Source of the DNA: Thermoproteota archaeon
Lineage (GTDB): Archaea; Thermoproteota; Thermoprotei; Thermoproteales; Thermocladiaceae
DNA length: 35,567 nucleotides
Assembly (NCBI GenBank): GCA_013154355.1
Contig: JAADCU010000036.1
Coordinates: 1-35,567 of the forward strand
Direction: 5' to 3'
The notes under the pieces are model-generated. The model searched no databases, had not been told where the DNA came from, and saw only the letters and a program-made list of their open reading frames with translations. The translations under genes and the position numbers were made by a program. Positions 27,533-29,511 of this stretch are shown here, piece by piece. The first letter of the stretch is position 1. Every line of letters starts with the position of its first letter.

Positions 27533-28309
27533 ATGATTGCTCTCGTAGATGTTCATGCACATCTCGCACGTCAGGAAGTTTTTTCAAAAGCTTCAGAACT
27601 CATAAAAGATGCTCTAGAGAATAATGTGAAAGTAATCGTAGTATCTATACAGAATGATATAGAACTGAGAAATGGGTTAGAATTACGTAAAATATATAGC
27701 ACGATCACTTACTTATCGATAGGTCAAGAGCTTTCTGACTTCACTATACATACATATAACATGTTCTCCAAGATCATACCTAGACTCGTAGAGGAGAGAC
27801 ATGTCATTGCTATAGGTGAGGTTGGGTTAGACTACTCTAAGATTCGAGATAACATTCTTAGAGATATTGCACGTGCAATATTTGAGAAGTGGGTAGAACT
27901 TTCAAAGAAGCTTGATATACCTATAATAGTTCATTCGCATAGAGCATATAATGATGTTCTAACAATATTAGAGAAGTATGATGTTAAGAAAGTAGTACTA
28001 CATGCATATAGCGGTGGAACAGAGACTGCTAAGAGAGCAGTAGATAGAGGATACTACTTTTCTATTCCTCCAAGCATAATGCATTCTAAGCAGAAACAGA
28101 AACTGGTTAGTGTAGTACCTCTGGAAAATATGTTACTCGAGAGTGATACTCCTGAGCTAGGTCCAGTATTTGGTCAAGAGAGCAAACCATCACATGTTAA
28201 GATTGTTGCTGAAAAGATTGCAGAGATCAAGAAGAAGAGTCTAGAGGAGGTTGCATATGTTACTACTAGAAATTTTGAAAGATTATTCAACATGAAGATA
28301 CTAGACTAG
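27533..28309 (+). CDS. TatD-like metal-dependent hydrolase
   Basis: VDVHAHL, AIGEVGLDY, PIIVHSHRA, VLHAYSGG, LLESDTPEL. Confidence 0.88.
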   Translation: MIALVDVHAHLARQEVFSKASELIKDALENNVKVIVVSIQNDIELRNGLELRKIYSTITYLSIGQELSDFTIHTYNMFSKIIPRLVEERHVIAIGEVGLDYSKIRDNILRDIARAIFEKWVELSKKLDIPIIVHSHRAYNDVLTILEKYDVKKVVLHAYSGGTETAKRAVDRGYYFSIPPSIMHSKQKQKLVSVVPLENMLLESDTPELGPVFGQESKPSHVKIVAEKIAEIKKKSLEEVAYVTTRNFERLFNMKILD

Positions 28310-29511
28310 ACTTCTTCAGGACCTCCCCACTCTGTCTCATATCTTGGACTTAGTCCTCTCTTTCTTAGAGCCTTCTTCAGCTTCTTATGCACTCTCACGA
28401 CATTACGGAAGAGTAGATGTAGTGCGTCTCTCACAGCTTTTATAGGATCCCAGTCAGTTACGGTAACTACGTACTCGTCGTATGGATCCTTCAGCTTTAT
28501 GTGAACAGAGTATTTGCATCTTTTTTCAACATTTTCCTGTTCTTCCGTACATTCATATACTTTAACCGTCATCTTTATGTCTATTATGTTCGTAAGTCTG
28601 TTAAGCTTACCATAGTAGTGTGATACTATCTTCTCTAGAAGCTTCCACTTATCTTCAGGAAGCTCGAGCTCTATCTTTGCTGGAATCGGTATTACTACCT
28701 TCTCTCCCTGTAGGAACCTCCTTATTATGTCTAGACCAGAGAACACTCCATAAATCTGTTCTCCCTTCATCACAGGTAGTCCAGAGATTCCTCTCTCTAT
28801 GAGTCTACGAAGTACAGCACTGACATCCTCCTTCTCTTGAGCAGTGACTACAGGATACGTCATTATGGCCTTGACAGGTGCTGCAAGAATCTCATCTTCA
28901 GAACCTGCAACCTCTCCGAGAGTCTGTCTTTCAGGTATTGAAGCATAGTAGAGTCTCTCTATTATGTCTCTCATCGTTACTATACCTACCAGCTTGCCCT
29001 CGTCTAGTATAGGCATTCTCGATATTCCTCTTCTAAGCATCTCCCACTTCACCTTAGCAACAGGGTCGTTCACGTTAGCTGTTACTGCTGGAGAGCTTGC
29101 ATAATCTTTTACAGGACCAGGCTTCACGTATCCTTCATCTACTAGATATTTTGCGAATGGTTCTCTTCTTATTATGCCTATAACCTTGTTATCCTTGTCT
29201 ACGACTGGTAGGTTCTTCATTCTTAGAGTGTAGAATCTGTACGCTACTATCTTTATGTCAGTGTCTGGAGTTACTTTATGAGGACCGCTCATTACGGCCT
29301 TGACCTTAGATAGTGGACTTACTCTACGCTCAAGAAGATCCTTATATGTCACGGTTCCTATAAGTCTTCCATGATCGTCTACGACAGGTATGGTCGAGAC
29401 GTTGTACTCTTTAGCAAGCTCTATGACCTTGCTTATTCTCTCCTTAGGCGTTACAGTAGGAAACTCGGTCTCTATTAGCTCTTCCGGTAGCACGAGTACT
29501 ATATCATGCAA
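28306..29511 (-). CDS. Four-CBS protein with C-terminal HPF/RaiA-like domain
   Basis: Four CBS repeats (VSTIPVVDDHGRLIGTVTYKDL; MKNLPVVDKDNKVIGIIRREP; ISRMPILDEGKLVGIVTMRDII; ISGLPVMKGEQIYGVFSGLDII). C-terminal ~110 aa resemble HPF: LEKIVSHYYGKLNRLTNIIDIKMTVKVYE...YSVHIKLKDPYDEYVVTVTDWDPIKAVRDALHLLFRNVVRVHKKLKK. Confidence 0.85.
   Translation of the reverse strand: MHDIVLVLPEELIETEFPTVTPKERISKVIELAKEYNVSTIPVVDDHGRLIGTVTYKDLLERRVSPLSKVKAVMSGPHKVTPDTDIKIVAYRFYTLRMKNLPVVDKDNKVIGIIRREPFAKYLVDEGYVKPGPVKDYASSPAVTANVNDPVAKVKWEMLRRGISRMPILDEGKLVGIVTMRDIIERLYYASIPERQTLGEVAGSEDEILAAPVKAIMTYPVVTAQEKEDVSAVLRRLIERGISGLPVMKGEQIYGVFSGLDIIRRFLQGEKVVIPIPAKIELELPEDKWKLLEKIVSHYYGKLNRLTNIIDIKMTVKVYECTEEQENVEKRCKYSVHIKLKDPYDEYVVTVTDWDPIKAVRDALHLLFRNVVRVHKKLKKALRKRGLSPRYETEWGGPEEV

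Follow-up and report, generated by a model that had tools for sequence, protein, structure and literature searches.

The question raised by this locus is whether an open reading frame on the minus strand (28306-29511) of the window, by which we mean the whole stretch of 35,567 nucleotides that was analysed, encodes a ribosome hibernation factor, and whether such a factor would be controlled by a ligand. An earlier note had proposed both, describing four CBS domains fused to an HPF/RaiA-like domain in a putative ligand-gated protein. Comparison of the sequence with known proteins indicates that the gene very probably encodes the ribosome hibernation factor HibA of a hyperthermophilic archaeon of the Thermoproteales. 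The reading frame exists as described and comprises 401 codons when counted from the TTG at 29511. Its four CBS domains are matched in four stretches by Pfam PF00571 (E=4.4e-46) and are also visible in the secondary structure of the model. The proposed length of the C-terminal domain, about 110 residues, holds, with its limits corrected to about residues 275-386, and the terminal helix is present at a corrected position, residues 356-384. In the full-length AlphaFold model (mean pLDDT 83, pTM 0.66), the CBS part is confident and the HPF domain moderate. The features of the gene are as follows.

28306..29493, minus strand: hibA coding sequence, with its likely true start at GTG 29493 (395 aa), from the frame of the relative L007
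29514..29526, minus strand: TATA-like promoter element ACTAAAATATTAT, identical in the window, L005, L006 and L007
29326..29481, minus strand: CBS domain 1; PF00571 match, [ST]xxD motif present
29137..29304, minus strand: CBS domain 2; RREP in place of the [ST]xxD nucleotide-site motif
28951..29112, minus strand: CBS domain 3; TMRD motif kept at residues 179-182
28879..28944, minus strand: loop between CBS3 and CBS4 (residues 190-211), equivalent by alignment to the PTC loop of HibA (loop position from PMC13324472)
28708..28878, minus strand: CBS domain 4; SGLD motif kept at residues 258-261
28354..28689, minus strand: C-terminal HPF/RaiA domain (about residues 275-386), from profiles, models and Foldseek
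28516..28551, minus strand: hairpin insertion between HPF strands 2 and 3, bounded by Cys321 and Cys332, from the alignment and the model

Homologues were collected from the genus, the family and the phylum of the window and aligned (alignment A1), and their C-terminal domains were cut out as a second alignment (A2). When the full-length A1 profile was compared with the PDB, the best match was HibA of Pyrococcus abyssi (9SR9 and seven further entries, E=2.8e-54), with 373 of the 381 positions covered. The window protein was filed as HibA because this profile ranks HibA first in the PDB. A single-sequence phmmer comparison also matched P. abyssi HibA (E=1.2e-14), with significance in the CBS part alone; over the HPF part the two proteins share little identity, which was detectable by profile only.

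HibA was described by Madru et al. (Nat Commun, 27 April 2026; PMC13324472) as an archaeal protein, studied in Pyrococcus, that acts as a plug on idle ribosomes and shields them. It is present in 47% of archaeal genomes and consists of a CBS module (residues 1-269) and a C-terminal HPF/RaiA domain (residues 270-392). Cryo-EM of the P. abyssi protein located the C-terminal domain in the mRNA/tRNA channel of the 30S subunit and the CBS module in three alternative positions on the 50S subunit. HibA inhibits translation in vitro, and deletion of hibA in T. barophilus lowered 70S levels and delayed regrowth (PMC13324472). The structures are PDB entries 9SR9-9SRF and 9T7H, according to the data statement of that paper. 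The fusion of CBS domains to an HPF domain and its role in hibernation are no longer new, and their discovery belongs to the April 2026 paper. For the window protein, the hibernation role put forward earlier is now supported by homology to this family; no experiment on any HibA of the Thermoproteales was found. By the same homology, the four CBS domains, which form an N-terminal disk, would be tethered to the 50S side and occupy vacant PTC, P/E or L1-stalk positions, and the protein would bridge and protect idle 70S ribosomes until growth resumes.

With regard to known relatives, HibA of P. abyssi (Q9UYR4) and of T. barophilus (F0LKU5) has four CBS domains and a C-terminal HPF/RaiA domain, like the window protein, and is of similar size (392 aa versus 395-401 aa). 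The CBS3-CBS4 loop and the HPF hairpin insertion are found in both. The window protein differs in its lengthened hairpin with two cysteines, its probable leaderless GTG start, the low identity of its HPF domain, and a PTC loop with only one lysine or arginine in its genus, whereas four are visible in the P. abyssi stretch. SriA-SriD, which were found on ribosomes of Methanosarcina acetivorans (PDB 9ZNF, 9ZNG and 9ZNI), are likewise four-CBS modules on archaeal ribosomes and were among the structural matches to the CBS part of the window protein; their chains of 270-339 aa match it in this part only. Conversely, bacterial HPF/RaiA/pY proteins (PF02482) share the fold of the C-terminal domain but have no CBS module.

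The window protein has kept the TMRD motif of CBS3 and the SGLD motif of CBS4; G176 and D182 do not vary across 31 homologues. As these site motifs are retained, binding of AMP by the window protein at CBS3/CBS4 is plausible. P. abyssi HibA binds AMP, its best adenylate, with a Kd of 12 uM, one molecule per module at CBS3/4 (PMC13324472). The kept motifs, the invariant residues and this affinity would suit a switch in which ribosome binding is turned on or off by AMP or ATP bound between CBS3 and CBS4. Such a switch is nevertheless unlikely, given that AMP left both the conformations and the distribution of P. abyssi HibA on the ribosome unchanged, that ATP added a single minor state, and that no nucleotide was seen in the native complexes (PMC13324472). 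The term 'ligand-gated' is therefore unsupported at present, since the ribosome positions of P. abyssi HibA barely change with either nucleotide. The authors of that study still see room for a role in release, or in sequestration by a partner (PMC13324472).

The assignment of the C-terminal domain depended on the family rather than on the single sequence. Pfam S30AE (PF02482) aligns to most of the length of this domain in the window protein, but the match is weak, with E=0.023 for the full-length protein and 0.0024 for the isolated domain, which scores 19.0 bits and thus lies below the gathering cut-off of 23.7. Because of this weak match, the proposed fold needed a stronger test. A single-sequence phmmer comparison of the domain with the PDB gave no relevant match, so that a family profile was required. 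The NCBIfam models that matched the window protein were all driven by the CBS part and remained far under their cut-offs. When PF02482 was run directly against the genome of the window, zero matches were obtained even at E<=10, which reflects a limit of sensitivity and not absence.

At the level of the family, S30AE matched 24 of the 28 homologous domains individually (best E=3.3e-9). The A2 profile, compared with all PDB sequences, gave 20 matches at E<=1, of which 18 were bacterial or organellar HPF/RaiA/pY proteins. The other two were CBS proteins matched by their C-terminus, namely HibA (9sr9_H, E=2.3e-5) and 9l96_a (E=0.036). In the AlphaFold models, both of the full-length protein and of the domain (AlphaFold2 on A2), the order of elements is strand-helix-strand-strand-strand-helix. 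As CBS and AMPK-gamma structures dominated the Foldseek comparison of the full-length model, the HPF domain was modelled alone; ranks 1-28 against the PDB were then all HPF/RaiA/pY. The structure prediction that had been suggested as a check thus returned an HPF fold. Taken together, the PDB profile matches, S30AE, the AlphaFold models and Foldseek place the assignment to HPF/RaiA far beyond chance, and the fusion of this domain to four CBS domains stands as first described. It is highly improbable that the protein is instead a CBS energy sensor with a different alpha/beta RNA-binding C-terminus, for example a dsRBD-like one, acting on RNA or transcription instead of idle ribosomes: dsRBD structures do occur further down the Foldseek list (E about 6e-3 or weaker), and transcription regulators such as HhpR are known among the other archaeal proteins with four CBS domains (PMC13324472), but HPF/RaiA stands above dsRBD in Foldseek by about two orders of magnitude, the sequence profiles match HPF proteins and HibA, and the PDB entry that matches best is HibA over its full length.

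Chain a of PDB 9l96 (406 aa; also 9l98, 9l9c and 9l9v), the second of these two CBS proteins, matches HPF weakly at its C-terminus and is probably another HibA orthologue, although no paper was found that could be tied to this entry.

Retaining the identification as HibA, we considered where its translation begins. In L007, a relative with 66% identity, the counterpart of GTG 29493 is the earliest codon at which translation could begin. The ACTAAAATATTAT box lies 21-33 nt upstream of GTG 29493, and the box of L007 is at nearly the same place. AT-rich boxes with similar spacing are also present upstream of hibA in several other members of the family. From the start limit set by L007 and the spacing of the box, we infer a leaderless transcript beginning at GTG 29493. 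This codon, at residue 7 of the reading frame, is probably the true start, which would yield a HibA protein of 395 aa.

Judged by its sequence, the window HibA appears to be an ordinary member of its family, with a few genus-specific changes at places where contact with the ribosome is expected. The first of these is the loop between CBS3 and CBS4. The long loop typical of HibA, which enters the PTC (PMC13324472), is present in the window protein at residues 190-211, but it contains a single lysine or arginine in the four members of the genus, against three to five in all 27 other A1 sequences (for example PERQTLGEVAG in the genus of the window versus PRRSRRGDVVG). As the loop of the genus is devoid of most basic residues, engagement of the 50S subunit may differ from that of HibA.

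The second change concerns the HPF domain. HibA carries two archaeal-specific insertions in this domain (PMC13324472), one of which, the hairpin between strands 2 and 3, is clear in the window protein. This hairpin exceeds that of most relatives in length, and in the genus it has at least four residues more than its counterparts in the family's other genera. Cys321 and Cys332, the sole cysteines of the window protein, flank it and are conserved in the genus, whereas the aligned HibA proteins of the family's other genera lack cysteine altogether. The model places one of the two at the end of a strand and the other at the start of the following strand, an arrangement in which a disulfide would fit. 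In HibA, an insertion located between the corresponding strands makes contact with uS12 and the decoding bases, and deletion of both archaeal HPF insertions did not lower inhibition by HibA (PMC13324472). In thermophiles, the formation of intracellular disulfides is presumed to be catalysed by PDO (PMC3177088); the four genomes of the genus that were searched encode a PDO-like protein, with a score below the curated cut-off.

The mechanism behind the altered loop, hairpin and cysteine pair is a matter of conjecture. It could be, though this is rather doubtful, that HibA has been retuned in this genus. Because the loop is net acidic and the basic patch has been lost, the CBS module would sit at the P/E or L1 position and not in the PTC, while a longer decoding-centre finger, stapled by a genus-specific disulfide (Cys321-Cys332), would possibly be responsive to redox conditions. 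A different pair of cysteines, CWDLPTC, was observed in the HPF domain of another genus (g96, family f47), in all four members examined (L058, L061, L062 and L064), at the place where the last HPF helix starts.

With regard to distribution, each of the 25 genomes sampled from the family of the window (G000-G024) contains hibA, and Dri was found in none of them at E<=1e-15. The converse applies to a sister family of the same order (f2), which includes Pyrobaculum calidifontis: of the 19 genomes sampled from it, 16 have Dri, and the 15 that were tested gave no HPF-domain match. The query for Dri was the P. calidifontis sequence identical to PDB 9e6q_3. Dri of P. calidifontis (PDB 9E6Q/9E7F) is also a CBS-module hibernation factor, but it comprises 655 aa with two four-CBS modules and no reported HPF domain, whereas the window protein combines one CBS module with an HPF domain. 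Mutual exclusion of HibA and Dri has been reported across archaea (PMC13324472); in the present case, the dividing line runs between two sister families within a single order, which use different CBS-based hibernation factors. These results extend HibA to an uncultured genus of the Thermoproteales, and the clean split between families, together with the altered PTC loop and the cysteine pair, provides concrete variation of a recently described mechanism that lends itself to testing.

In four of the 25 genomes (G012, G021, G022 and G023; completeness 47-67%), hibA is split over at least two overlapping frames, probably owing to assembly indels. A CBS frame of about 690 aa in P. calidifontis was considered as Dri and rejected, as its sequence resembles a transporter of the MFS type that carries CBS domains; the true Dri lies elsewhere.

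The many translation genes that had been pointed out in the window are present, with reading frames that resemble aIF5A, L21e, CysRS, SerRS and Rio2 by inspection, but they are scattered over both strands and form no operon with hibA. An operon of this kind was rejected on the basis of the neighbours, as hibA converges with a TatD-family gene on one side and stands head-to-head with a divergent DUF2122 gene on the other. This head-to-head order of DUF2122 and hibA is kept in the genus of the window and in most sampled members of the genus g4. The DUF2122 gene ('RecB-family nuclease'; 29556-30032, plus strand) and hibA have a short intergenic region in common, and the same arrangement was seen at loci L005-L007, L015-L018, L020-L025, L027 and L034.

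Two other genes of the window, both on the plus strand, were also observed. The reading frame at 25588-27528 (646 aa) has hydrophobic stretches at its N- and C-terminus and a match to the C-terminal domain of Lon-type proteases at residues 113-185; it diverges fast inside the genus, with 25-39% identity in L007, L014 and L015. The frame at 15196-19149 (1317 aa) looks, by inspection, like a reverse gyrase with helicase and topoisomerase parts, which fits a hyperthermophile.
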